Below are positions 28,011 to 57,851 of a stretch of DNA of 64,000 nt, in pieces. This stretch comes from a virus. Each line of letters opens with the position of its first letter. Within the stretch, counting starts at the first letter, position 1. The stretch spans positions 22,284 through 86,283 of IMG/VR virus record IMGVR_UViG_3300032282_001282. One strand, written 5' to 3'. The notes beneath the pieces are model-generated. The model was not told the DNA's origin and did not search any database. It saw only the letters and a list, made by a program, of their open reading frames with translations. Both the position numbers and the translations under genes were made by a program.

Positions 28011-29168
28011 TTAGAAGCGATGTGTCATACCAACCACATAAGCGTTTTGAGTAGTTCCTGTAGAAGCTACCACGCTTGGGTATGTTGCTGTTCCGTATAG
28101 TGAACCATAGTTTGCACCACCAGCACCATATGGAGCAAATCCACTAGTACCTTTGTTGGCAGTAGAAGCTACACCAATGTAAGCAGTGGTACGCTTGCTA
28201 AAGTTGTAGTCACCCACTAGACTCCAGGTTTGCGAACCATTAGCAGAACTGATATTGTCTTTGAGATTGTAATAACCAGCAGTCACATCAACCTTGGAAG
28301 TTGCATTATACTTGACACTTACTTGACGTAGATCAAAGTCTGTGTTAGCGGCATTGGCACCATTTGGGTTTTGGAAGTTTGCCCAACCAGCGGCTACCTT
28401 GAACTTGTCAATGGTGTAGTTACCACCGATAGTTGTTGTTTCAGCAGTTGCTAACCCAGCGGCACTATTAGATGTCTGATAACTGGCAGAACCATTAAAC
28501 GCACCACGAGTATAAGCCAATGCATACAAACGACGGCTACTTGCATCCAACGCACCAAAAGTTGTGTTATCGGCTACACCGCCAGTTGTGTATTGTACAG
28601 AACCTTTGAAGCCTGCAATCACTGGAGTGTCTAAACGAACAGCGTTACTCAGGAATGTTGTACCAGTCATGGTAGCAAGACCAGTCTTGGCTGTGCTTGT
28701 GCCACCAAAGGTAGAACCATCATTCCAGTAGTTCAAAGAACCACCAAAGTTACGGCCTGCGTTAACGTCACCAACTGCAAATGATTCAAATGCCAAGTTG
28801 TCTTGACGACCTAGAGTCATACGACCCAAGCCGGTGTTGTCTAGATAAACGTTTGCGCCACGGCTGAACACGTTGTTTGCTGTGCCCGAACTTGAACTTG
28901 CACCTTGGCTACCATCGGCTGGATTGATCTGTGATTCAATTTTGAATCCAGCTTTTGTACCGCCACCTAAATCTTCTGTACCAGTAAAACCAATACGGCT
29001 GGTCCACATTGGTGAACTGAGGACTTGGGTCGCGTTTTGACCTGCTGTTCCAACGTTGGTTGCGTTAACAACACCAATGTCCATGATACCATAGACACTA
29101 ACGTTTGATTGAGCGTGGGCGATGCCAAAACTTAAGGCAAGGCTTACCGCTAATAGTAGTTTCTTCAT
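28011..29168 (-). CDS. Outer-membrane general porin (Gram-negative porin family, betaproteobacterial type)
   Basis: 385 aa with signal peptide MKKLLLAVSLALSFGIAHAQ. SNVSVYGIMDIGVV, SRIGFTGTEDLGGGTKAGF, GRMTLGRQDNLAFE and the terminal YVVGMTHRF (aromatic last residue recognised by the BAM machinery) follow the Burkholderiales porin pattern over the full length. It forms a 16-stranded trimeric channel in the outer membrane. It has its own TTGACA promoter and terminator, so it is a separate expression unit. Possible roles: nutrient uptake, replacing or masking the host receptor. Confidence 0.93.
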   Translation of the reverse strand: MKKLLLAVSLALSFGIAHAQSNVSVYGIMDIGVVNATNVGTAGQNATQVLSSPMWTSRIGFTGTEDLGGGTKAGFKIESQINPADGSQGASSSSGTANNVFSRGANVYLDNTGLGRMTLGRQDNLAFESFAVGDVNAGRNFGGSLNYWNDGSTFGGTSTAKTGLATMTGTTFLSNAVRLDTPVIAGFKGSVQYTTGGVADNTTFGALDASSRRLYALAYTRGAFNGSASYQTSNSAAGLATAETTTIGGNYTIDKFKVAAGWANFQNPNGANAANTDFDLRQVSVKYNATSKVDVTAGYYNLKDNISSANGSQTWSLVGDYNFSKRTTAYIGVASTANKGTSGFAPYGAGGANYGSLYGTATYPSVVASTGTTQNAYVVGMTHRF

Positions 29169-40958: not shown

Positions 40959-41927
40959 TTATTGTACGTTTTTCTTGGTTTTTTCTAATATTTTAAATGT
41001 CTTATTCTGTATTGTACGCAAATCCTCAAACGAGCCACCGGCGTTTATAACGCCCGATGTTTTGAGTCTTTCTGCGTATACAGGATTTTTCAACCCTTCC
41101 TCAACCACGAGATGTATTCTAGCCACAGTTGCTAAATCAGTACCAGCCGGCGCAAATAGTCCATACCAAATGTTCATGTCTAATTCGGGGTGCTTCTTGG
41201 ATAACGCTGGTAATTTAACAGAAGGATTTAATTCGTTGACCGTATGGCTTCCTTCGGGAGTCAGTGCGGCAATAAATTTAATTTTTCCAGCCTGCCATTG
41301 TGGCTTTAGTGTACCCAGTGAATCAATTGAAAAATCCACATTGCCGGCCATCAAATCAATCAGTGCTGGGCCGCCACCTTTGTAGTTGATAATCTGTGGT
41401 GCTGGTAATTTTTCCAATTTGGCCCAGTATGTAAACAAGTTGGCATTGTGATTGGACCAGTGTGCTATGTTGAATTTGTTGGGATTTTTGCGTACATAGT
41501 CCTTGAGTTCTTCATAGTTGTTAACAGGACTGTTTGCAGGAACAGCAAGAATAAATGTGGCAATACCCATTGGGATAATTGGAGAGAAACTGGCCGGTGT
41601 ATATTCTATATTTTCTTGTGCAGTCTTGAAAACAATATTACTGTCCAAGGTACCTTGACTGACCATGAATACTGTGTGTCCGTCTGGATTGGCCTTGGCC
41701 ACATAGTTGGCGGCAATCACAGTATCAGCACCGGGCTTGTTTACAACTGTAGCTCGCCAGCCGTGATTGTTAATAATTTCTTCAACAATACGAGCAAGTC
41801 GGTCTGTGTTTCCGCCTGGTGCAAACCCTACCACAATTTCAATTGGTTTTTTTGTTGGATCAAAATCAGCTAGAGCTGAAAAAGATAACATTGATAGTAC
41901 GGCTGTGATAAAAAGTCGTTTAAACAT
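40959..41927 (-). CDS. Bug/TctC-family periplasmic solute-binding protein
   Basis: 322 aa from ATG 41927; the signal peptide MFKRLFITAVLSMLSFSALA then begins correctly. PIEIVVGFAPGGNTDRLAR is the classical family motif, and VVNKPGADTVIAANYVAKANPDGHT and YKGGGPALIDLMAGNVDFS follow the canonical order, so this is the most typical Bug protein of the three. It lies directly downstream of the second PP-loop gene. Confidence 0.92.
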   Translation of the reverse strand: MFKRLFITAVLSMLSFSALADFDPTKKPIEIVVGFAPGGNTDRLARIVEEIINNHGWRATVVNKPGADTVIAANYVAKANPDGHTVFMVSQGTLDSNIVFKTAQENIEYTPASFSPIIPMGIATFILAVPANSPVNNYEELKDYVRKNPNKFNIAHWSNHNANLFTYWAKLEKLPAPQIINYKGGGPALIDLMAGNVDFSIDSLGTLKPQWQAGKIKFIAALTPEGSHTVNELNPSVKLPALSKKHPELDMNIWYGLFAPAGTDLATVARIHLVVEEGLKNPVYAERLKTSGVINAGGSFEDLRTIQNKTFKILEKTKKNVQ

Positions 41928-41989
41928 GATTTGAATGGTCCTTATTTTTAAAAATTTCAATGATTGCGTTGTATAGTTTTTCTAGCACG

Positions 41990-43815: not shown

Positions 43816-43844
43816 ATTATATACTTATTTGACTAGCGTGTCAA
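43816..43844 (-). promoter_or_regulatory. Sigma70-like promoter of the split tmRNA
   Basis: Minus strand TTGACA (43844-43839), exactly 17 nt, TATAAT (43821-43816); start site expected near 43809. The -35 box lies in the last codons of the radical-SAM gene. Confidence 0.85.
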
Positions 43845-45330
43845 ACGGGGTTAATTTGGATTTTTTGTAAGTTTCTATGGCCGCATACACTTCTTTGATT
43901 TTGTTACCAAATAATGTTTTATCAAAAGTTCCATTTATAACATCTTTGATATCGATTCCTAATCCAACTATTTCCGACACTTCCCACATAGCAGTTACAC
44001 CATCATTCCAGTTGTGTATAACTTTGCCAAACTTCTTTCTGTACTGATCTGTTTCTTTGTTTAACTGTTTTGCGATGGCCAATGCTGTATCTACATCCAT
44101 AAATTTGTTTTTCCAGTTTACAATGTCGATGTCTTTTTTAAATGTGCCTTTGTCTACAGTTTCTGCATCTTTTGTAGTGTAGTCCCATTTTTCATAGTTC
44201 TTCTCAAACTCACTTAATCTAGTCATTGCATTTTTACGCAACACCAATCCAAACCATTCCCATTTATCAAATACTTCAAAGTTCTGGTCGATAAACCATT
44301 GCTGGCTATCAAGTATGCTTTTTAATGATTCGCCGGGCAGTCCTACAATCATTCCTGTGTATGTATAGATGTCGCGATTCTTTTTTAGTTGTCTAACAGC
44401 GTCAAGTTGACGTTCAGTATCCATGCCCTTGCCAATGGCTTTTTTAGCCTCAGGATGGAATGATTCTATCCCAAAGGTACCGGCAATAAGTCCTGTGTCG
44501 GCCAACATTGATATTGTTTCAGGATATCTGGCCATTAAGTCTGCACGTAAGAATGCCGAGTAAGTTAGTTGAACTCCGCTTTGTGCAATAGCTTCGGCAA
44601 CGTATTCTAGTTTAACTATGTTGTCGTTAAATGTATCGTCTTGGAATGTGTAGTTAGTGATACCCCACATTTCGTAATTGCGTTTGAATTCATCGGCTAA
44701 ATTTCCTTTGTGTCGTATGTAGTCATTTTTCTTTTTACCAAGCAAAGGAAATTGGCAAAAGGTACATCTAAATATACAGCCACGACTAATTTCAACAGGC
44801 AAGAAGTTAAATTTAATTTGATCTTCGGGCAACCATTTGATTGTTAAATCAGTGTCATCATTCTTGTAAAATTCTTCAGCATTAACTGCCAGGGTTTCTC
44901 TATATGGTACCCATTGTAGGTTGTCTAATCGTTTACCCGTAATGTATTTTAAGTAATGTAATACTGCTTCTTCGGCGTAGCCCCAGATAATTCTATCTAC
45001 TAGAGCTGTATCTAATCCAGCCAGTGCAGATTCGTTACCGCCAATGAGTGTTTGTACTCCGGGATAGGTTTCTTTGACATGTTTGAATAAGGTATTAATT
45101 TTTTCAAAGTCGTACAAGAATGTAATGCTAATGCCAACAAACAAAGTATCTTTTGTGATATACTTTGCACATACTTGTTTTAATTCGTCTATAGAAAAAT
45201 GACTAAAGTAATCAACTACTTCAATGTTGAACCCATGTGGTTCCAAGAATGTCCTAATTCTAGTTGCACCGGCAGGCCTAGTTAAGGTCTTGGTTTTATC
45301 CATGCCAGTGAAGATTATTCCGTGTGTCAT
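43825..45330 (-). CDS. Radical SAM enzyme with N-terminal cobalamin-binding-like domain
   Basis: 501 aa. The cluster motif CIFRCTFC (C185, C189, C192) is CxxxCxxC; FQDDTFNDN, LGIESFHPEAKKAIGKG-like FGIESF and GMIVGLPGE are radical-SAM core motifs. Residues 1-130 form a Rossmann-like region (TLIGGNESALAG) as in B12-binding radical-SAM proteins, but the DxHxxG cobalamin motif is absent. Class B methylases and peptide-modifying enzymes have this layout. It overlaps the gene upstream by 4 nt. Confidence 0.85.
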   Translation of the reverse strand: MTHGIIFTGMDKTKTLTRPAGATRIRTFLEPHGFNIEVVDYFSHFSIDELKQVCAKYITKDTLFVGISITFLYDFEKINTLFKHVKETYPGVQTLIGGNESALAGLDTALVDRIIWGYAEEAVLHYLKYITGKRLDNLQWVPYRETLAVNAEEFYKNDDTDLTIKWLPEDQIKFNFLPVEISRGCIFRCTFCQFPLLGKKKNDYIRHKGNLADEFKRNYEMWGITNYTFQDDTFNDNIVKLEYVAEAIAQSGVQLTYSAFLRADLMARYPETISMLADTGLIAGTFGIESFHPEAKKAIGKGMDTERQLDAVRQLKKNRDIYTYTGMIVGLPGESLKSILDSQQWFIDQNFEVFDKWEWFGLVLRKNAMTRLSEFEKNYEKWDYTTKDAETVDKGTFKKDIDIVNWKNKFMDVDTALAIAKQLNKETDQYRKKFGKVIHNWNDGVTAMWEVSEIVGLGIDIKDVINGTFDKTLFGNKIKEVYAAIETYKKSKLTPFDTLVK

Positions 45331-46103
45331 TTGTTCTTATTAATGTAACGCTGTTTTAGTGCTTCAAAAAACTCACGATCATCATCAGTTAATTCAACTG
45401 CATCAATTTGTTCACGTTGATATCTAACAAAATTTTGTAGTGCTTCAAAGTCGCCTTCATACTTAAAGTTGTTGGTAATCTTTTTAGTATCGTAAACGTC
45501 CATGATAATATGATAACGATCTTCATCTGAGTCATTGCGAATTTGGTGCCATAGGTTAGTCCAAATAATGTATGGACGACCATCGGCTTCCATGTACAGA
45601 CGATCCCCATCACAGATGTGTACGCATTGGTCGTTAGTCCACAATGGAATATGTAGTCTAGCCATATACTCAGTTGTGTCTGCGTCTTTGTGTACTAGGC
45701 TTTTACAATGTGCTTGTAAGCAGGTAATCCTGGCACGTCTAGGATAAAAACCCAACTCCATTAAATGATCAATTATTTTTTTAATTTCGCCTACATAGGC
45801 CTGTGTGGGCTTGTCGTGTTCTAAACTGTGGGAAATATTAAAATGTTTAAAGGACTTGTATATTAGTTCTGTTGTAGGTAAAAATGATTCAAGTGACGTA
45901 CCGGCTTCTGTTTGTATTGCTTCCCAACCATCTTGCCAGTCTGCACTACGGCTTAACAAACTCCACCCGCCAAATCCGTGATACTGTGGTGTTTCAAATT
46001 CTTCGCCTTGGATTACTTGGTTGCCCAATGTAAATACACTTTCGCGAACTTCTTTGCGAAGTTTATCAATATCAAATTGAACGTCTAATTTTTCGTACCA
46101 CAT
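45327..46103 (-). CDS. Aspartyl/asparaginyl-hydroxylase-like HxD dioxygenase
   Basis: 258 aa. H138-K-D140 (LVHKDAD), H186 (LWHQIRND) and R196/R-Y after it give the Fe(II)/2OG triad and arginine. The AHIPLW-like ARLHIPLWT and DGDRLYMEADGRPYIIW strings resemble aspartyl beta-hydroxylase-type enzymes, which often modify proteins. Between two radical-SAM or oxygenase genes in one operon. Confidence 0.7.
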   Translation of the reverse strand: MWYEKLDVQFDIDKLRKEVRESVFTLGNQVIQGEEFETPQYHGFGGWSLLSRSADWQDGWEAIQTEAGTSLESFLPTTELIYKSFKHFNISHSLEHDKPTQAYVGEIKKIIDHLMELGFYPRRARITCLQAHCKSLVHKDADTTEYMARLHIPLWTNDQCVHICDGDRLYMEADGRPYIIWTNLWHQIRNDSDEDRYHIIMDVYDTKKITNNFKYEGDFEALQNFVRYQREQIDAVELTDDDREFFEALKQRYINKNK

Positions 46104-46111
46104 ATTATTCC

Positions 46112-46687
46112 TTAAATGTTATTTGTTTCTTTGAGCATTTGGTATACATCATTATATGTATACTTTTTTGTTCTGAGAGCTATAGCTTTTCTAACAGCAA
46201 ATTCTTCTACCGGGATCACGTTGTGTATTTGCGATACATCTAGTAACCAAGCCTCGCCTTCTTCGGCAATAAAACTATCTATTTCTTCTACATCATCTAA
46301 ATCGTATACGGCTTTTACATAAGCAACTTCTTGGTCTTCTTCAAGACGACTTTTAGGACGGGTAATTACATTTTCTAATTGATGATAAGTTGAATTGTCT
46401 TTGGCACGATAAAATACCGTGCGACACTTTGTAGTCTTAATGTAAAAATTAATTGTAGTTACTAAATCATTATCAACGTGCGGTAACAGTACAGAATTAA
46501 TAGTCATCAGCGTTAGATAAAAATCATCTTTATACTGTTTAGGTACCACAGAATAAATTGCGTCTATGTCCGGGCTCCAAATTTTATTATGATATACACC
46601 CTTACCGTCTAGGCCAGCAAAAGACTCTAGTCCACTGATGTTAGTGTACAAAGGTGTTTCAAATCGATTTGTTAAGCGAGCAAACAT
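46112..46687 (-). CDS. HxD dioxygenase-like protein, paralogue of 47330-47860
   Basis: 191 aa. H70-V-D72 (LLPHVDND), a distal H in SQIHNV and an R in VRKAIAL follow the Fe(II)/2OG pattern. FARLTNRFETPLYT, NKIWSPD and TTINFYI are shared with the paralogue. The two genes flank the methylase-like gene. Confidence 0.68.
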   Translation of the reverse strand: MFARLTNRFETPLYTNISGLESFAGLDGKGVYHNKIWSPDIDAIYSVVPKQYKDDFYLTLMTINSVLLPHVDNDLVTTINFYIKTTKCRTVFYRAKDNSTYHQLENVITRPKSRLEEDQEVAYVKAVYDLDDVEEIDSFIAEEGEAWLLDVSQIHNVIPVEEFAVRKAIALRTKKYTYNDVYQMLKETNNI

Positions 46688-47340
46688 AGCGTCTTATAAT
46701 TAAAATAGTCAGACCCAGATTCAATTATTTGTCTTAGTCTCGGAATGTCTATTTGTTCAATCTTATTAGTATAACCTATTTCGACAGAATATGCAATCAT
46801 ATCTTCGGATAGTTTTTCCAATAGCTGTGTTTGGTTATAGAACTGTGAGTATCCACGCCCTACACAAGCAAGTACATTAACTGCATCCGATTTTAATTCA
46901 AAATTGTTAACGTCTACAATCTCTACAATGTTCATTGGCTTTGCAATACCCAACGCTTCATAACATAATTCTCCCGAAGACTTAGTGTCAATTACTGGAT
47001 ATCGTTTTGTTAATTTTTTACAAACGCTGTCAAAATAATAAGGACTGCCTGGTGCTAGATACGCATACTTAGAATCTCGGGGTAGTGATTTAATAACATC
47101 AATGACCTTCTTGGCAACACTAAATCCATCGATCCTTTTGTTATTTTCTACCCAGGCATTTAATGTAATTATCTTGTGTCCACGTTCTTTAATATACCGA
47201 TAACCGTAATAGTCGGGATAAGATGCCGATGCTACAACACAAGTAATCTTTTGATCAAAGAATGTATAAAACTCTTTGGTAGCAGATTCTTGAGTAATCG
47301 GCACACCCACGACAGTAATGTCGCGAGACTTAAACCACAT
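46672..47340 (-). CDS. Tetrapyrrole-methylase-fold-like protein (possible peptide methyltransferase)
   Basis: 222 aa from ATG 47340. DITVVGVPITQ at the N-terminus, YLAPGSPYYFDSV and the following TKSSGELCYEALGI occupy the places of the glycine-rich loop (GxP/GDP) and the S-x-E...LGI segment of the tetrapyrrole-methylase family, a family that also contains the borosin backbone N-methyltransferases. There is no cobalamin or haem gene nearby. The assignment is a by-eye motif match and could be wrong. Confidence 0.45.
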   Translation of the reverse strand: MWFKSRDITVVGVPITQESATKEFYTFFDQKITCVVASASYPDYYGYRYIKERGHKIITLNAWVENNKRIDGFSVAKKVIDVIKSLPRDSKYAYLAPGSPYYFDSVCKKLTKRYPVIDTKSSGELCYEALGIAKPMNIVEIVDVNNFELKSDAVNVLACVGRGYSQFYNQTQLLEKLSEDMIAYSVEIGYTNKIEQIDIPRLRQIIESGSDYFNYKTLCLLA

Positions 47341-47860
47341 TGCCGGTCTCTTTAAGCATTTCAACAACATTGTCATAAGGATGTATAAATGTACCTAAGG
47401 TTACTGCCTTACGCAGACCGATGGTACCTTGTACGCTGTGTATTTTCTTAACGTTCAAGCACCATATTTCAAAGTCCTGTGCTACAAAACTATCTACTTC
47501 TTCAAGCTCATCTTCAAAATAAATGTGACCATCAATTTGATTTTCTATTTGCAAGGTCCTTGGATTATCTACTGTAGGTCGATAAAATACAGTTTTAGCT
47601 CCGCTGGTTTCAATATAAAAATTGATAGTAGTAATAATTTCTGTATCTGTATGTGGAGGTATTGGGCGATTGATAGTCATAACAGTTAAATGAAAATCAG
47701 ACCAATAACGTTTAGGCAATACGCTGTAGAGTTTTTCGGCGTCGGGCGACCATATCTTTTTATAGTCAATGCCTTGGTTGTCAACGCCTGTGAATGTCTT
47801 TAGCCCCTGTGTTACTGTGTACAGTGGTTTTTCAAAGGTGCTGTTAAGACGTACAAACAT
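47330..47860 (-). CDS. HxD dioxygenase-like protein, paralogue of 46112-46687
   Basis: 176 aa from ATG 47860 (TAATG overlap with the upstream stop), matching the paralogue's start. H70-T-D72 (PPHTDTE), distal H in KKIHSVQ and R in LRKAVTL. Shares FVRLNSTFEKPLYT, KIWSPD and TTINFYIETSG. The duplication around the methylase-like gene suggests related substrates. Confidence 0.68.
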   Translation of the reverse strand: MFVRLNSTFEKPLYTVTQGLKTFTGVDNQGIDYKKIWSPDAEKLYSVLPKRYWSDFHLTVMTINRPIPPHTDTEIITTINFYIETSGAKTVFYRPTVDNPRTLQIENQIDGHIYFEDELEEVDSFVAQDFEIWCLNVKKIHSVQGTIGLRKAVTLGTFIHPYDNVVEMLKETGNVV

Positions 47861-48546
47861 TATTTCCACTCTTTAATTTTGCTCATGCGTCCAGCCCAGG
47901 ACTTTAGAATTACAGTATTTTCATAGTTAGGATCAACTACCTTACGTAAATCTGTGCTTAGGCTAATGCGTAGGTCCGAGGATTTGTTTTGGTCTACGCC
48001 GTGTAGTACATAGCTAGGGAAAAATATTAGTCTACCTTCTACTGGTTTAAATCTACGCTCACGCACATAGGGACTGCCACTAACAGTATTGCGATCCCAA
48101 TTGATTGCTCCTGCTGTGTCATAGCATACTAAATCGCCACAGCCTTCTTTTGCTTGGATATAGTATGTAGCCGCAATGGCAGATTCTGTGTGTCCGTGTA
48201 CTTCCAATGATTCACCGGGCTCACGCACATTAACCCAGCCCATAAAATGCTCGCACCCTTTGAGGTTAAGCAACCTAATCTCGGGTACTTCTCTAGTGAT
48301 TGTTTTAGTAACAATATCAACGATTTCTTGTTTAAGTATGTCTAAGTTAGGACGACTATAATCCCAAATACTATCACCGGGCTTACGGTCAAGGCCCAAT
48401 ACAATGTCTTTGCCTATACTGTATATTTCGTCAAGCAAGGCAGTATTGAACTCTTCATCAAATCGTGTTTGTACTTCCCATATTGGGCTTTTCCAAAATA
48501 AGTTTTGTGCGTTTTGATACCAGTGGTATCTTTCTTTATCGTCCAT
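47860..48546 (-). CDS. Putative 2OG-Fe(II) oxygenase (phage type)
   Basis: 228 aa. LEVHGHTESAIAATYYIQ with H117/H119 and E121, GCGDLVCYD, GRLIFFPSYVLHGVD with H182, and DLRISLS with R193 follow the large family of phage and bacterial putative 2OG-Fe(II) oxygenases. These are common in cyanophages. Substrate unknown; in the oxygenase operon. Confidence 0.78.
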   Translation of the reverse strand: MDDKERYHWYQNAQNLFWKSPIWEVQTRFDEEFNTALLDEIYSIGKDIVLGLDRKPGDSIWDYSRPNLDILKQEIVDIVTKTITREVPEIRLLNLKGCEHFMGWVNVREPGESLEVHGHTESAIAATYYIQAKEGCGDLVCYDTAGAINWDRNTVSGSPYVRERRFKPVEGRLIFFPSYVLHGVDQNKSSDLRISLSTDLRKVVDPNYENTVILKSWAGRMSKIKEWK

Positions 48547-48547
48547 A

Positions 48548-49150
48548 CTATCTGTCCACTATTAAATTTAATTGTTTAAATTTGTCTACTACTGTTTCCC
48601 ATTTAGGCATATCAGGCAAGCGTGGGCCTAACCATGCTCGTACACTAATTGCCCAACGACCTTCACTACCACATTCAATGGCGTGTGGTTTGTCTGTACG
48701 ACACAATACCATTCCCGAGTTTATTTGTTTTCTATCTATTTCAACTAGCTGTCTAGTATCCCACTCGCGATAGCCGTAGTCGTTAAGGTCGGGATGATAT
48801 TCATCAACATCTTTGCCGGGATCATCATACCATGTCATGTAGGATGTTGTATTATTAAATGTCCAGTTCATTGCCCACGTTGTAGTACCAATGGAATCTA
48901 TATCCCAATGGGCTCTGTTGGATTTTAAATACGGTGCTTTGTAAAACAACATGATCAACCCTTTGAGATAAATTCCTTTATCTTCAAATTGGTCAATCCA
49001 CTCTTGTTTGAAAATTTGGTCGGCTGAATAACGCCAACTCTTTTGAACTAACGGTTCTGGGGGAAATTTAAAATCGTCAAGTAATGCGTGTTCTGAGTTA
49101 GCATTAATATCGTACCAGGAGTAATTTAATTCCCTTGTTGACTTTTCCAT
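48548..49150 (-). CDS. HxD Fe(II)/2OG dioxygenase-like protein
   Basis: 200 aa. H81-W-D83 (RAHWDID), H156 (DKPHAIEC) and R171 (AISVRAW) give a complete triad plus arginine. Tryptophan-rich. It overlaps the small unknown gene upstream by 25 nt and lies 2 nt before the next oxygenase. Confidence 0.72.
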   Translation of the reverse strand: MEKSTRELNYSWYDINANSEHALLDDFKFPPEPLVQKSWRYSADQIFKQEWIDQFEDKGIYLKGLIMLFYKAPYLKSNRAHWDIDSIGTTTWAMNWTFNNTTSYMTWYDDPGKDVDEYHPDLNDYGYREWDTRQLVEIDRKQINSGMVLCRTDKPHAIECGSEGRWAISVRAWLGPRLPDMPKWETVVDKFKQLNLIVDR

Positions 49151-49461
49151 TCATTGTATTGTTGTAATAGAGCATTTGACTCTGTATCTTTTTCAACCCA
49201 AGGTAAACCATCATCTTGTCCCTCGGATGCAGATTTAAGCAATGCAGTCTGCCCAAGCAACATACGTGCTTCAGGCGGAATAATTGCTTCAACAATATCA
49301 TGATATTCAGTCATCATTTGAAAGTATCTGGCTTTGTCTGTTTCGCTCAAGGCCATAATACGTTGATACATTTGATTGTTGAAAAAGTCGTGCAGGTGAT
49401 CTTTGTTGTAAACTACAACTTCACCGTTTTCGTTTGTAATTGTAATATTCTCTTCGCTCAT
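49126..49461 (-). CDS. Small acidic protein next to the Cys-rich gene
   Basis: 111 aa. Acidic, with an ITITNENGEVVVYN beta start and helical remainder (YFQMMTEYHDIVEAIIPPEA). Overlaps the Cys-rich gene's stop by 4 nt (ATGA), so it is translationally coupled to it. It could be a partner of the modification system, but no motif supports that. Confidence 0.6.
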   Translation of the reverse strand: MSEENITITNENGEVVVYNKDHLHDFFNNQMYQRIMALSETDKARYFQMMTEYHDIVEAIIPPEARMLLGQTALLKSASEGQDDGLPWVEKDTESNALLQQYNEWKSQQGN

Positions 49462-50333
49462 GCTGTTACACCTTTAAATTTTAATGTTTCAAATAGTTGA
49501 CCAACAGCAACGATACCTCTGAATGCAACAAATACAGCTACCAATGAAATGCCTTTGATAAACCCGGCTGGCTTAGTACTAGGACCAACTAAACGTTGCC
49601 ATAGTCCAACTGCTTTACAAATAGGTATGCCAGCGGCAGTTAACATTTTACCTGTAATAGATCCTTGGTCAGTTTTGCCCATACTATAGGCCATTTCTTC
49701 TGCCCACGGTGTAGCAATATCCTTGGCCCAAGCAATAGCCCAATCTTTAAGAATTTGTTGACTACGAGATTCTGGCAACCACGGTAAGATATTAGGACCA
49801 CTGCCATCCATCCAGTCAACTACAATTTCAGCCCAAGCACGATATCCGTTGTAGATATCCGGGCGTTCTTTAATTAGTTTAGCACCAAACTCTTGATCAG
49901 CTAAGAAGATTTCAGTTGGTAGTAGTCCAAGACTGTGTAGTTTTGTACAGATAATCTTAGAGCAGTTACAATCGTGTGTAAAGCAATTTACTGTATCGCA
50001 GTTGTAAGTACAAGCACAATTACAGTTTGCCTGTAGCCAGTTTTGAGCATCGCAGTTGGCGCAATTAATCGCTGTACAATTTGCTGTGTTACAGTTACAT
50101 TGGCCGCAGTTACAATTACCGTATGCGCCGTTATTGCCGTTATTGCAATTGCCTTGGTTGTTATTTTTAAAGTATGTTAGGCCGTAGAACGAACCCATGT
50201 TTGGACTTGTAGGTCTGATATTTGACTTAATCAGTCCGTTGAGAAAGTTTAAATCTGCAGAATAGTTTGCGGCCTGTCCAATTTCTTGGTTAACGTCGCT
50301 GACTGCAATTTGTCCAGATGTTTGTAGCGTCAC
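49458..50333 (-). CDS. Late virion-type protein with a 16-cysteine Asn-Cys repeat domain
   Basis: 291 aa in three parts. Residues 1-55 (QIAVSDVNQEIGQAANYSAD, MGSFYGLTYF) match the beginning of many phage tail proteins (I-x-x-S-D-V-N-x-E-[LI]-G ... S-F-Y-G). Residues 60-130 hold 16 Cys, most preceded by Asn (GNCNCGQCNCN, NCNCACTYNC, HDCNCSK), an unusual density for a cytoplasmic phage product. Residues 135-291 are a helical globular domain with a hydrophobic end (GISLVAVFVAFRGIVAVGQL). A CATAAATA late promoter precedes it and a SPASM radical-SAM gene is directly upstream. Likely a modified or metal-binding virion protein. Confidence 0.8.
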   Translation of the reverse strand: MTLQTSGQIAVSDVNQEIGQAANYSADLNFLNGLIKSNIRPTSPNMGSFYGLTYFKNNNQGNCNNGNNGAYGNCNCGQCNCNTANCTAINCANCDAQNWLQANCNCACTYNCDTVNCFTHDCNCSKIICTKLHSLGLLPTEIFLADQEFGAKLIKERPDIYNGYRAWAEIVVDWMDGSGPNILPWLPESRSQQILKDWAIAWAKDIATPWAEEMAYSMGKTDQGSITGKMLTAAGIPICKAVGLWQRLVGPSTKPAGFIKGISLVAVFVAFRGIVAVGQLFETLKFKGVTA

Positions 50334-50350
50334 ACTTGCCCCTTTTCTTA

Positions 50351-50358
50351 TATTTATG
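50351..50358 (-). promoter_or_regulatory. Late promoter CATAAATA
   Basis: NATAAATA on the minus strand 18 nt before the start of the Cys-rich gene; it overlaps the 3' end of the SPASM gene. Confidence 0.7.
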
Positions 50359-51808
50359 CATCAGCAAGCTGTGATTTACCGTAGACTGTAACCCCGTCAA
50401 TTTCGCCTATTGTTTCGTGTACTACTTTAATTGGAATAATGCGTTTTGTTGGTTCTTCTTTGTGTTCAAAAATAGTACCAAATATGTCTTGACGATCTAT
50501 GGGCAATGTATCGCTCTTAATTAATGTAGGGATATAACCCCCAGTAACTTCAGCAATAGCTAAAGCAAACATGGCCACGTTGTCGGAGTAGGCATTGGCA
50601 CAACTGATATCCCAGAACTTTTTGTCCAGGAACATACAAGCACCTTTACATAAATGTAGCACAGGACACTCAGGGCATTCTTTACGCTTAGACCAATGTG
50701 TTACTGATGTAAGTTTAACTTCATCAAATTTATCTAGTGTACCGCCTAGGTGTGGCTCACCATTCTTAGACATTTCTAACGCACTTACGTTTTGGCAAGT
50801 TAATACATTGCCTCGCAAGTCTACAGCAATGGTATTCTCATCATCCATACCGCATTTTTGTCCTACAAATTTAGCATCAACACGGTTCAGTAAGTTCTGT
50901 GCAAAGCCACCAATCTTTTGAATTTGGCCTAGGAAACCAATCTTACCATCTGTAGTCCAGATGTCGGCAAATGCTTGACGTCTAAATTCAAAGTGATCTT
51001 GTTTAGTTATTAAGCTGTTAACAATACCTTCTTCGTCATAGGCATCGACAATACCGCCTTCGCCTAACTGTACATTTTCATCACCAGTTAGATCAACAAA
51101 CCAATCGTAAATTTCTTTGCGTGATCTGTTCTTGCTGTTAAGCATAGCATTGAAACTAAATCCTTGTTTCAATCGGGTCATCATACGATAAAACCCAAGT
51201 ATACGTTCTTTTTGTTCTGGATCATCAAAAGGATCTGGTCCTCGCACACTTTGTCCCGGACCGTCATGACTAATAGCAACAGTGAAGTTATACTGCATTA
51301 ACCAATCAATCATTTCGTCTGTTAGAATTGATCCGTTGGTAATAACACTAAACCTAGGTTTTGTTTTCCAGTGGCTAAATTTTTTATAAATTGTTTCAGC
51401 CAGTGGCTTCATTGTTTTCCAATAAACAAATGGCTCGCCGCCACAGAACTCTACCTTGAGTCCTCGCTGTTCATCGAAGTTTAAATTTTCTAGTTTTTGC
51501 ATGAAAGCATCAATGTCTTTCATGTTAGTTTCTGGTGCCCGCTCAACAAACTTTTGTGAGCAATAGTCACAAGAATAGTTACAGCTCAAACCCATTTGGA
51601 TTTTAAGATGTGTAATGTCTCGAGATTTTAACATCGGTGTGTCGATGTCAAATGATGTATATGGTGTGAATGAGTCGGTTAAATTTTTATCGGCGTTGCC
51701 AAATTCAAATACAGTACCATCGCTTGTGGTTAATGTATTAGACATATTGTCGTAGTAAAAGACAGCTTTATCCGTGGAGCTTTTTTCTCCGTGTATTTCA
51801 AAAATCAT
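50354..51808 (-). CDS. Radical SAM/SPASM protein-modifying enzyme
   Basis: 484 aa. LSCNYSCDYC (C76, C80, C83) is the 4Fe-4S cluster motif; VEFCGGEPF is the GGE motif. The C-terminal SPASM domain is complete: C-GMDDENTIAVDLRG-x(4)-C followed by CPECPVLHLCKGAC and a last Cys (ISCANAYSD), i.e. the two auxiliary clusters of anSME, sactionine and ranthipeptide maturases. No leader-binding RRE domain was recognised at the N-terminus. Its neighbour downstream is the 16-Cys protein, the obvious candidate substrate. Confidence 0.9.
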   Translation of the reverse strand: MIFEIHGEKSSTDKAVFYYDNMSNTLTTSDGTVFEFGNADKNLTDSFTPYTSFDIDTPMLKSRDITHLKIQMGLSCNYSCDYCSQKFVERAPETNMKDIDAFMQKLENLNFDEQRGLKVEFCGGEPFVYWKTMKPLAETIYKKFSHWKTKPRFSVITNGSILTDEMIDWLMQYNFTVAISHDGPGQSVRGPDPFDDPEQKERILGFYRMMTRLKQGFSFNAMLNSKNRSRKEIYDWFVDLTGDENVQLGEGGIVDAYDEEGIVNSLITKQDHFEFRRQAFADIWTTDGKIGFLGQIQKIGGFAQNLLNRVDAKFVGQKCGMDDENTIAVDLRGNVLTCQNVSALEMSKNGEPHLGGTLDKFDEVKLTSVTHWSKRKECPECPVLHLCKGACMFLDKKFWDISCANAYSDNVAMFALAIAEVTGGYIPTLIKSDTLPIDRQDIFGTIFEHKEEPTKRIIPIKVVHETIGEIDGVTVYGKSQLADA

Positions 51809-52126: not shown

Positions 52127-52637
52127 CTCTGCGAACCCCGGTGGTAATTATACCGCATCAGAAATTTGGTCAGGTTACCCCAATTAGTCTTTCATCACAC
52201 ACGGCTTCCACCCACTTCCCGACGGGTTCCGTTCTCGCATTGCCAGCGGCCTTTCGGTTTAAAGACTACCACCCACGGGGCACGACCACCGTTTCTCCTT
52301 CATGCGGGTCACACTAGCCCAGCGTTACCCGGGCGGGTCCTTTACAACGTATTCGTCGTGGGTGGTTTTGGGAAGTGACACCACGATTCACTTGCGGGTT
52401 TTGTAGAGAGTTTTTCAAGTGAGCGTTACCGCCTCTACAGGAACGCACTTGTCCCTTCTCACTTAATATTTACAGCAATATTGGAAAATGTTTGAGTGCC
52501 AATTTATGCGTCGGGTGCTTCCCGGCAACAGCGTATGGCTAGTTATATCAGGACCTGTTCCACGCCAGTTAGGCCCGTATAGTCAGTACGTCTACTAACG
52601 ATACCTATGTTTCCATCTCAAACACTTACCAATATTG
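52127..52637 (-). ncRNA. Large structured non-coding RNA, family not identified
   Basis: About 510 nt with no coding sense and higher GC than its surroundings. Reading the minus strand: a 21-nt long-range helix 52637-52617 with 52496-52476 (19 Watson-Crick pairs, one G-U, one mismatch); an H-type pseudoknot made of TGTAGAG/CTCTACA (52439-52433 with 52408-52402) interleaved with TCACTTG/CAAGTGA (52422-52416 with 52394-52388); a 9-bp helix CCACCCACG/CGTGGGTGG (52365-52357 with 52277-52269); and an 8-bp helix TAGTCTTT/AAAGACTA (52268-52261 with 52192-52185). Strand is inferred from neighbours. Not RNase P, tmRNA or rRNA by motif. Ends are approximate. Confidence 0.7.
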
Positions 52638-55562: not shown

Positions 55563-56969
55563 TTAGTGGAACATCAAGAAACTGTTTTCAACGTCTAGTC
55601 TATTAGCGGCACGATCCCCATGACCGGCCGGAAATATAACTACGTTCCATTTAGGTTTAGGTCCTTCGGGAATAGTCAACATCTGATCGTATGTAATAAT
55701 GGTGTCGGGATCAATCTTGTACTTAGCGGCAAGATTCTGTTTGAACTGATTCCACTCTGCTTCGCCTTTGATTTGTGTGCGACCTTTTTCATCTTTAACG
55801 TATTTGCCTTTGGCATCAGTTACAAACAAACCACGGAACATATCTTTAGGCAATGTTAGGCCTTGCTTAACAGTATTGCCAGCAGACTTGTGTATTTCAA
55901 TCTTTTTGTCTTGGCCACGTTTTGCACCAGAGCTAAAATTGATAATAAAGTTAGCAGGCTTTGAGCCAGTAGCAACATCAGCCATCTTTGTATAGGCATA
56001 AAACTTAACATCAGGGTTGGCATTGGCAACCCCGTATGCTAGATCTAAATATTCTTTAGAGAAGAAGTCACCGGCATCGTGCCAACGAACAACTAACTGG
56101 ATACCAGCTTTGTCTGTTTTACCTTTAACTTGTTTAATCTCTTGATTAACACGAGCTGTATATCCTTCTGGATCATTGACTAAGAAGTTTAATGCTTGTG
56201 CGGCACTCATTGAACTAGCAGGGAACATAACGTATCCGCCTTTACGTGCATAGCAAAACAATTGGCACTCACCTGCACCAGGACAAGTAGTAATTTCTAC
56301 AAAGTCGCCAGTTTCTTCATCGACAACAATACCGCTTAATGCTGGTAAAGTTAAATCGTATACAATTTCACCTTCTGTTTTACTTTTTTCCATCTTGGCA
56401 TTAGTACCAAGGATAGCACGTGGGCGAGTTGTAATTTGACGAGCTAGGTCATCTAAGTCCCATGCTTCGCCCGAGTCAGTAACGATAGCTTTAATGTTGC
56501 TACCGTGTATAATAGGATTGAATCTATCTTTTTTAGTTTTGGTTCCTGACTTGATACGGTCAGCATAACCTTGTAATTCATCGCGGCTCCAGTTACGTTG
56601 CGGAGCATTTAGTTTAATTGCTTCTGATAAACCTTCTAGATCTTCTGCTGGCCAGCTTTGATATGTTTTACCGTTAATATCACCAGCACGTACAACAAAC
56701 ACACCACCATTGTCATAGCCTTCGTCTTGACCAACTTCCCAACCCATTGCGGCTAGCGTTTGTTCGGCACGTGGATCTTCATCACCGTTCCACCATTGTG
56801 CGGCTAATTGATGTAGTAGTTCGTCTTCGTTGGGTTCGCGATCATCACCACCGGGTGGCGCAAATTCTTGAACATCTTCTGCGTCTTGATCTTGGATATG
56901 CACAGGCTTGACTGCAAAGCCGCCTAGTGTACGTTCTGTAATTTGTTGTTTAAATTCAAAGAATCTCAT
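55563..56969 (-). CDS. Large protein with GP88-like Cys domain
   Basis: 468 aa. The C-terminal 300 residues carry ITTCPGAGECQLFCYARKGGY (three Cys), VRWHDAGDFFSKEYLDLAY and VKFYAYTKMADV, the pattern of the GP88-type phage protein family. The N-terminal 150 residues are a separate acidic region (PPGGDDREPNEDELLHQLAA). The Cys motif could hold a metal cluster. Late box GATAAATA upstream. Confidence 0.7.
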   Translation of the reverse strand: MRFFEFKQQITERTLGGFAVKPVHIQDQDAEDVQEFAPPGGDDREPNEDELLHQLAAQWWNGDEDPRAEQTLAAMGWEVGQDEGYDNGGVFVVRAGDINGKTYQSWPAEDLEGLSEAIKLNAPQRNWSRDELQGYADRIKSGTKTKKDRFNPIIHGSNIKAIVTDSGEAWDLDDLARQITTRPRAILGTNAKMEKSKTEGEIVYDLTLPALSGIVVDEETGDFVEITTCPGAGECQLFCYARKGGYVMFPASSMSAAQALNFLVNDPEGYTARVNQEIKQVKGKTDKAGIQLVVRWHDAGDFFSKEYLDLAYGVANANPDVKFYAYTKMADVATGSKPANFIINFSSGAKRGQDKKIEIHKSAGNTVKQGLTLPKDMFRGLFVTDAKGKYVKDEKGRTQIKGEAEWNQFKQNLAAKYKIDPDTIITYDQMLTIPEGPKPKWNVVIFPAGHGDRAANRLDVENSFLMFH

Positions 56970-57029: not shown

Positions 57030-57851
57030 TTAGTCTGCCGAAGCTGACGAACCGCATTTAGCACGTTTGGCATTGGTCAATGCACCAAAGTCTACTCGCC
57101 ATTCTTGTCCAGGTGCTAGTTCTCGAGCATTAGCCGGGAATTTAAAATCAACGCCGGCTGTTTTTTCAATTTGTGCGATTGGTAAGCGGAATTTAGTTAG
57201 GTCATTGCCTAGGTTAGGATACGGTGCTGTATGTGGAAATGCCCAACCAGCAATTTCACCGGTAGCTTGGTTAATAACAATCTTATAAAAACCGTGCGGA
57301 ACAACTACACCCTTGCCAATTTTCTTATCATTAGCATCATATATACCACCAGCAATGATTGTGTATACCTGATTACGCTGTACTGCCCAACCACGTACAC
57401 TAGTTTCTAGTAATTTCCAGATACCACGATTTAAGCTACCAGCTTGTGGGCTCATGTTAGTCATTAAGAATGACTCAAATTCTACTTGTACGTCCCAACT
57501 TAGGTCACCATCGGGTGCCATATGTCCTTTATCGTAGCCTGTGCCAGCATAATCATCGGGAACTGGACCATTGGCAATACTTTGGTCTGCGGCAAACGCA
57601 TTAGTACGTGCTACGCAACCTAATGCGTTAGGTGGTGTTAATGTATAGGCTACATAGTTTGGTAACTTTGCGGCCGCATCATAGGCAACCAAGTATGCTT
57701 GTCGGCAAATAGGCTGTAGTTGACGTGCTGTTTGTGCAAAGCCATATGGCTGATGTACTCGACAAGCATCAACTGGATTAGGGGCTCGTTGTGTCCACGC
57801 AAATGTGGAGGTGGATAGTGTAAGTGCTAGAATAGCAATAATATGTTTCAT
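57030..57851 (-). CDS. Secreted DNA/RNA non-specific endonuclease (NUC family)
   Basis: 273 aa with signal peptide MKHIIAILALTLSTSTFA. YDKGHMAPDGDL is the catalytic D-[RK]-G-H block (His general base) and FLMTNMSPQAGSLNRGIW supplies the metal-binding Asn region. Relatives are periplasmic or secreted nucleases. It could degrade DNA of competing phages or salvage nucleotides in the periplasm. GATAAATA late box 20 nt upstream, inside the next gene's end. Confidence 0.9.
   Translation of the reverse strand: MKHIIAILALTLSTSTFAWTQRAPNPVDACRVHQPYGFAQTARQLQPICRQAYLVAYDAAAKLPNYVAYTLTPPNALGCVARTNAFAADQSIANGPVPDDYAGTGYDKGHMAPDGDLSWDVQVEFESFLMTNMSPQAGSLNRGIWKLLETSVRGWAVQRNQVYTIIAGGIYDANDKKIGKGVVVPHGFYKIVINQATGEIAGWAFPHTAPYPNLGNDLTKFRLPIAQIEKTAGVDFKFPANARELAPGQEWRVDFGALTNAKRAKCGSSASAD

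Follow-up and report, generated by a model that had tools for sequence, protein, structure and literature searches.

A SPASM radical-SAM enzyme, often accompanied by a 2OG oxygenase, probably modifies an (Asn/Ala/Asp)-Cys repeat of tail-fibre-type proteins in a phage system. In viruses and in bacterial genomes alike, the occurrence of the enzyme depends on the repeat itself and not on the protein that bears it. The repeat either forms the very C-terminus of the fibre protein or immediately precedes an autoprocessing domain (Hint, Peptidase_S74). The gene pair studied here lies in a 64,000-nucleotide stretch of viral DNA (hereafter the window) and is one member of this widespread modular system, which often includes the 2OG oxygenase.

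Gene layout of the locus

The 86,283-base virus record that contains the window has T4-like traits such as a clamp loader, a DNA ligase and a head maturation protease, and its tail-fibre and baseplate-type proteins are further T4-like features. The earlier note, made from the letters of this DNA, had placed a 291-aa protein directly 3' of a complete SPASM radical-SAM gene. Both ORFs are present on the minus strand as it described and are separated by 20 bp (Table 1). The late promoter that it had named is also there, as a T4-like element before the substrate gene. On the minus strand of the window ATAAATA occurs 12 times against 14 expected, which is no excess over chance; it lies just upstream of 8 of the 54 minus-strand ORF starts checked, tail-fibre genes among them. 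An Rfam search gave no match for the GC-rich stretch 52170-52380.

Table 1. Features of the proposed modification locus in the window
Feature	Position	Strand	Basis or remark
SPASM radical-SAM enzyme (phrog_1802), proposed modifying enzyme, 484 aa	50354-51808	-	PF04055, phrog_1802
T4-like late promoter element CATAAATA, -24 from GTG start	50351-50358	-	overlaps 3' end of enzyme gene
Proposed substrate, a Cys-rich protein of virion type (291 aa, 17 Cys, GTG start)	49458-50333	-	IMG/VR relatives
N-terminal region of the 291-aa protein, residues 1-58, common to close relatives	50160-50333	-	alignment
Segment of Asn-Cys repeats (residues 62-128), proposed as the site of modification	49950-50150	-	16 Cys, 12 NC
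C-terminal helical KIICTKL module, residues 125-291	49461-49961	-	relatives on Gly-rich proteins
111-aa ORF directly 3' of substrate gene, possible accessory	49126-49461	-	often conserved
PF13759 2OG-Fe(II) oxygenase, likely the cassette's other modifying enzyme	47860-48546	-	Pfam 3.1e-17
2OG-oxygenase-like ORF, paralogous to 46112-46687	47330-47869	-	assigned by motif only
Paralogue of the 47330-47869 ORF	46112-46687	-	hmmsearch 6e-72
Aspartyl/asparaginyl beta-hydroxylase family protein (PF05118)	45327-46103	-	Pfam 7e-10

Several other minus-strand genes of the window were noticed. These encode a Gram-negative porin (28011-29168; PF13609, 4.5e-43; no PHROG match), which is unusual phage cargo, a TctC-type solute-binding receptor (40959-41960; PF03401, 6e-34), a GP88 family protein (55563-56969; PF17338) and, with an N-terminus that resembles a signal sequence, a DNA/RNA non-specific endonuclease (57030-57851; PF01223). 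A DctP-type solute-binding protein was recognised by eye in locus L026 (7866-8807).

The 291-aa substrate candidate

Residues 62-128 of the candidate substrate (67 residues) hold 16 Cys, 12 of them as Asn-Cys, in agreement with the stretch of about 70 residues and 16 mostly Asn-paired Cys that had been described. A 72-residue segment contains 12 Asn-Cys dipeptides against 4.0 expected, a number reached in none of 10,000 shuffles. Mean conservation of Cys in the repeat segment is 0.80, compared with 0.33-0.54 for Ala, Thr and Gly there. Chance low complexity was considered as the origin of the repeat and rejected because the enzyme never accompanies out-of-frame repeats and because the Cys columns show conservation.

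The earlier note had also read the N-terminus as tail-like. Pfam, PHROGs and NCBIfam recognised no tail or fibre domain in the window protein itself, N-terminus included, and the tail assignment is supported instead by the relatives. The similar N-terminus of a relative (L029) matches phrog_30374, a family of unknown function, and the repeat proteins of L139, L169, L179, L190, L218 and L291 match tail-fibre PHROGs. The further claim that this is a particle protein appears well supported by such comparisons, since the substrate relatives with recognisable domains are tail fibres, and we infer that the repeat protein is present in virions. A PDB fold search with the model of the substrate (pLDDT 69, below 50 in the repeat region) gave no match. 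The KIICTKL module, which starts with these residues, likewise has no PDB fold match, and its BFVD matches lie in phage DUF4815 and other proteins; the domain also follows a Gly-rich linker on other, tail-type phage proteins, including a DUF4815-type protein of 1,829 aa.

The radical-SAM enzyme

The enzyme matches PF04055 (1.2e-10) and phrog_1802 (1e-61). In an alignment of 27 relatives with identities as low as 34%, no Cys is invariant except C75, C79 and C82 of the CxxxCxxC SAM-cluster motif and seven SPASM Cys (C318, G332-x4-C337, C377xxC380x5C386x3C390 and C402). The seven-Cys SPASM motif is CX9-15GX4C-gap-CX2CX5CX3C-gap-C (PMC6231123), and the first spacing in the enzyme is 13 residues to Gly. 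The enzyme is thus complete, as had been claimed, with all ligands for the SAM cluster and two auxiliary clusters, and it has seven, not eight, SPASM Cys. Its AlphaFold2 model has a pLDDT of 88.5; anSMEcpe, CteB and SuiB were matched, with E-values down to 1e-12, anSMEcpe and CteB being the best PDB folds. Campylobacter phage enzymes align with it over the radical-SAM core only.

At the Aux I position equivalent to C261 of anSMEcpe the enzyme, like CteB, has no Cys, and the sequence predicts that its Aux I site is probably open in the lack of an eighth Cys. Directly behind the next SPASM Cys the enzyme has Gln, whereas anSMEcpe has Asp277, its proposed base. Together, the open Aux I site and the Gln in place of Asp would favour thioether chemistry over formylglycine. 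It is quite improbable that the enzyme turns repeat Cys into formylglycine or another oxidised residue in the way of anaerobic sulfatase maturases, so that aldehydes at the tip couple to the host surface. Although anSMEcpe is the closest PDB fold and the enzyme of Achromobacter phage JWF is annotated as an anaerobic sulfatase maturase, the window enzyme scores 59 against the cut-off of 349 of the corresponding family (TIGR03942), has Gln aligned with Asp277, and is paired with a protein without a CxPxR motif. Membership in a known NCBIfam peptide-maturase family was also rejected because all scores were far below the cut-offs, as for NF047865 (PapB-type ranthipeptide maturases; 78.9 against 340) and the QhpD family (61.7 bits against 453). 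No RRE leader-binding domain was recognised in the enzyme.

Association of the enzyme with the repeat

Scans of IMG/VR gave 64 loci with the substrate as query and 74 with the enzyme, and nearly all full-length Cys-rich relatives directly adjoin the enzyme gene. Among distinct KIICTKL proteins, the enzyme accompanied 59 of 59 with a Cys-rich linker and 0 of 20 in which the linker was Gly-rich or of another kind (Fisher 4e-19, without phylogenetic correction). The enzyme therefore follows the Cys repeat. A pairing of the enzyme with the KIICTKL domain was considered and rejected on the same 0/20 count of the Gly-rich versions.

IMG/VR was also scanned for DNA encoding NCNCNCNC, with neither protein used as reference. 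This yielded 120 stretches, 105 of which have the repeat within an ORF. Sixty-six loci with at least 3.5 kb downstream were usable; the enzyme lay on the same strand in 59 of these and in 0/15 of the out-of-frame controls. The 7 exceptions were five ORFs that we read as simple repeats, together with L338, where a weak match to the enzyme lies a short way upstream, and L362. When three bacterial genomes were searched whole, the NCNCNC-coding pattern was found solely at this locus.

The GTDB genome collection contains the enzyme family in 80 loci, mostly in Burkholderiales and Alphaproteobacteria, and going by their fibre genes these loci are probably prophages. Enough upstream sequence was available in 62 of the 80. 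Within 6 kb on the same strand, an ORF with (XC)3+ was found near the enzyme in 45/62 loci, against 1/62 in the antisense control. The two cultured Achromobacter phages JWF and 2-1 carry the enzyme two genes on from a tail fibre that bears the repeat before a Hint domain. One Alphaproteobacteria MAG (JASGCM) has five enzyme loci (L185, L199, L206, L209, L253), each with an NC-repeat fibre.

The repeat was present in 29/31 GTDB loci whose enzymes score at least 380 bits and in only 16/31 below this value. Some members of the family may therefore have another target, and the edge of the family is blurred. In Bacteriovorax-type bacteria (L243-L247), distant enzyme relatives occur without a Cys repeat, and some of them adjoin another Cys-rich SPASM-like ORF. 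That half of the distant enzymes have no nearby repeat would fit a system in which the enzyme modifies another target, for example the host surface or a phage component, and the repeat protein is a co-regulated neighbour whose Cys form ordinary disulphides after release. We regard this as very improbable, because the enzyme goes with the repeat and not with the remainder of the protein, whether the search starts from the enzyme or from the repeat and even where the fibres are unrelated. The earlier note had named a pair not conserved elsewhere as grounds for refutation; searched in both directions, the pair proved to be conserved, with near-perfect specificity for the Cys repeat. These comparative tests support its proposal that the phage may modify its own particle protein.

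The repeat as a module of fibre-type proteins

Among 171 distinct contexts of the repeat, 105 end the protein, 39 precede KIICTKL, fewer precede Hint and one precedes Peptidase_S74. The residue X in the (XC)n runs is N in 595 cases, A in 117 and D in 58. Asn directly precedes 78% of the repeat Cys (position -1) and is found three residues before 46% of them (position -3), a pattern that does not single out the acceptor residue. NxxC was tried as an acceptor rule and rejected, the data favouring 'NC'.

The fibre of phage JWF reads ...NCNCDCNCNCSCFPAGT, in which CFPAGT starts the Hint domain (PF05203, 3e-12). Hint and S74 are autoprocessing modules, and S74 is named Chaperone of endosialidase in Pfam. 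Cleavage at either would leave the repeat as the mature C-terminus, as in the proteins that end in the repeat. Mapped onto a 162-row enzyme tree, a quick tree with some long branches, these settings switch at least 6 times.

Several variants of the arrangement were observed. Three NC-repeat proteins lie in a row with one enzyme in L026 (5707-7360), and tandem sets of such proteins also occur in L219, L222, L274 and L319. Short proteins ending ...HTHIFYDDYSTACNCNCNCNC... were found in L261, L302, L310, L326 and L267; several of these adjoin more than one, more distant radical-SAM gene, and they are possibly a separate branch of the system. In cyanophage SynMITS9220M01 (L141, 4669-6519), a long poly-Pro and then poly-Arg linker precedes a KIICxxL-type domain, and no enzyme match was recorded.

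Some repeat proteins are short (72-104 aa), with several to one enzyme (L026, L219, L222, L274), as might be expected if the repeat protein were no particle component but a peptide-like product, intracellular or secreted (a phage RiPP). However, by their PHROG matches many other repeat proteins are long tail fibres that carry S74 or Hint domains, and no transporter was seen beside the window genes. A product of this kind is hardly likely at all.

Oxygenases and accessory genes

The PF13759 protein of the window scores 63.3 bits against a Pfam gathering score of 27. This oxygenase family is present in 82-90 of 106 viral enzyme loci and in 1/36 and 0/15 of controls. A related 2OG oxygenase family was found in 48/80 genome loci, and a 2OG oxygenase in 26/59 NCNC loci. 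In many bacterial loci the ORFs between fibre and enzyme are 2OG-oxygenase-like: in L180, PF13640 is above its cut-off and PF13759 just below, and the profile of one bacterial group of such ORFs matches the window oxygenase (2.5e-11). The family of the 47330-47869 ORF, which has no Pfam match, occurs in 84/106 viral enzyme loci, and the PF05118 gene in 81/106 compared with 1/36 controls. Homologues of the 111-aa ORF were present in 61/106 enzyme-centred viral loci and in 4/36 loci without the enzyme. Some T4-like phages have many 2OG oxygenases of unknown function (PMC9602691), and lineage may therefore explain part of the link between oxygenase and enzyme.

A second radical-SAM protein of the window (43825-45330, minus strand) is of the B12-binding type and closest to the P-methyltransferase PhpK, with 104 bits against the PhpK cut-off of 600. 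It is present in 16/106 enzyme loci.

Proposed mechanism

We propose that the late-made fibre protein would be modified in the cytoplasm, before or during assembly. The open Aux I site might bind a substrate Cys, as the one in CteB does (PMC6231123). The enzyme would then most likely form thioether bonds from repeat Cys to backbone or side-chain carbons of neighbouring residues, and the oxygenase would probably hydroxylate residues of the same fibre protein. The outcome may be a compact, covalently locked fibre tip, resistant to reduction and in contact with the host. The position that Hint or S74 has elsewhere would be occupied by the KIICTKL domain in the window protein.

Thioether cross-links are, as judged from sequence, the most likely reaction on the Cys repeat, and the Cys-based cross-links that the earlier note suggested are to be understood in this conditional sense. 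SPASM enzymes are known to make Asn-Cys and Asp-Cys thioethers, such as the Cys23-Asn20 bond of NxxcA and, six times over, the Cys-Asp bonds of freyrasin; the substrate of QhpD is a protein (PMC8326336).

The repeats might instead bind metal or an Fe-S cluster along the axis of the fibre trimer, the modification by the enzyme being different or minor. The strict alternation places all Cys on one strand face, and the repeat is located at the fibre end; the tip of T4 gp37 has HxH iron sites. A dedicated radical enzyme is superfluous for simple metal binding but is almost always present, and we consider this explanation unlikely. Beyond the modification of the repeat by the enzyme, a broader scheme is a realistic possibility that we advance tentatively: a new class of viral modification in which the radical-SAM enzyme and the 2OG oxygenase jointly cross-link the Asn/Cys tip of trimeric fibres, autoprocessing domains expose this tip as the host-touching C-terminus, and the tip moves between unrelated fibres and replaces a Gly-rich tip.

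Phage radical-SAM enzymes are usually listed as auxiliary metabolic genes without function, and the fibre end usually decides host recognition. Our results give one such family a specific, testable job, the modification of the phage's own fibre end. If the proposal is true, radical chemistry becomes a further means by which virus particles are built, many phage 2OG oxygenases so far unexplained gain a role, and NC repeats become an easily recognised sequence tag. It would also provide a natural, modular route to cross-linked protein tips.

Relation to known systems

The SCIFF/ranthipeptide maturases (CteB, PapB) and NxxcA likewise combine a SPASM radical-SAM enzyme with an adjacent Cys-rich substrate, and a probable open Aux I site is common to CteB and the window enzyme (PMC6231123). 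The substrates of the window type differ in being tail-fibre-type phage proteins. PapB-type systems (NF047865) have a short precursor with CX3D repeats, whereas the protein here has 291 aa and alternating XC repeats. QhpD resembles the present enzyme as a SPASM enzyme that makes Cys-Asp/Glu thioethers in a protein, not in a peptide natural product; however, it cross-links a subunit of quinohemoprotein amine dehydrogenase and is not a phage system. In the best fold match, anSMEcpe, the SPASM domain has eight cluster Cys and the base is Asp, whereas the window enzyme has seven Cys and Gln, and no CxPxR target. Sactipeptide synthases (AlbA, SkfB) share radical thioether chemistry on Cys, and AlbA also has seven C-terminal cluster Cys (PMC6231123), but these enzymes act on small bacteriocin precursors and have no phage structural role. 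Tail fibres with Peptidase_S74 or Hint are related in that the repeat directly precedes such domains in relatives; usual fibre tips are not partners of radical enzymes, and the KIICTKL domain of the window is neither S74 nor Hint. No report of the enzyme/repeat pair or of NC-repeat fibres was found in the open-access literature. The enzyme class and thioether chemistry are known, and their viral use on the ends of tail fibres appears to be new.
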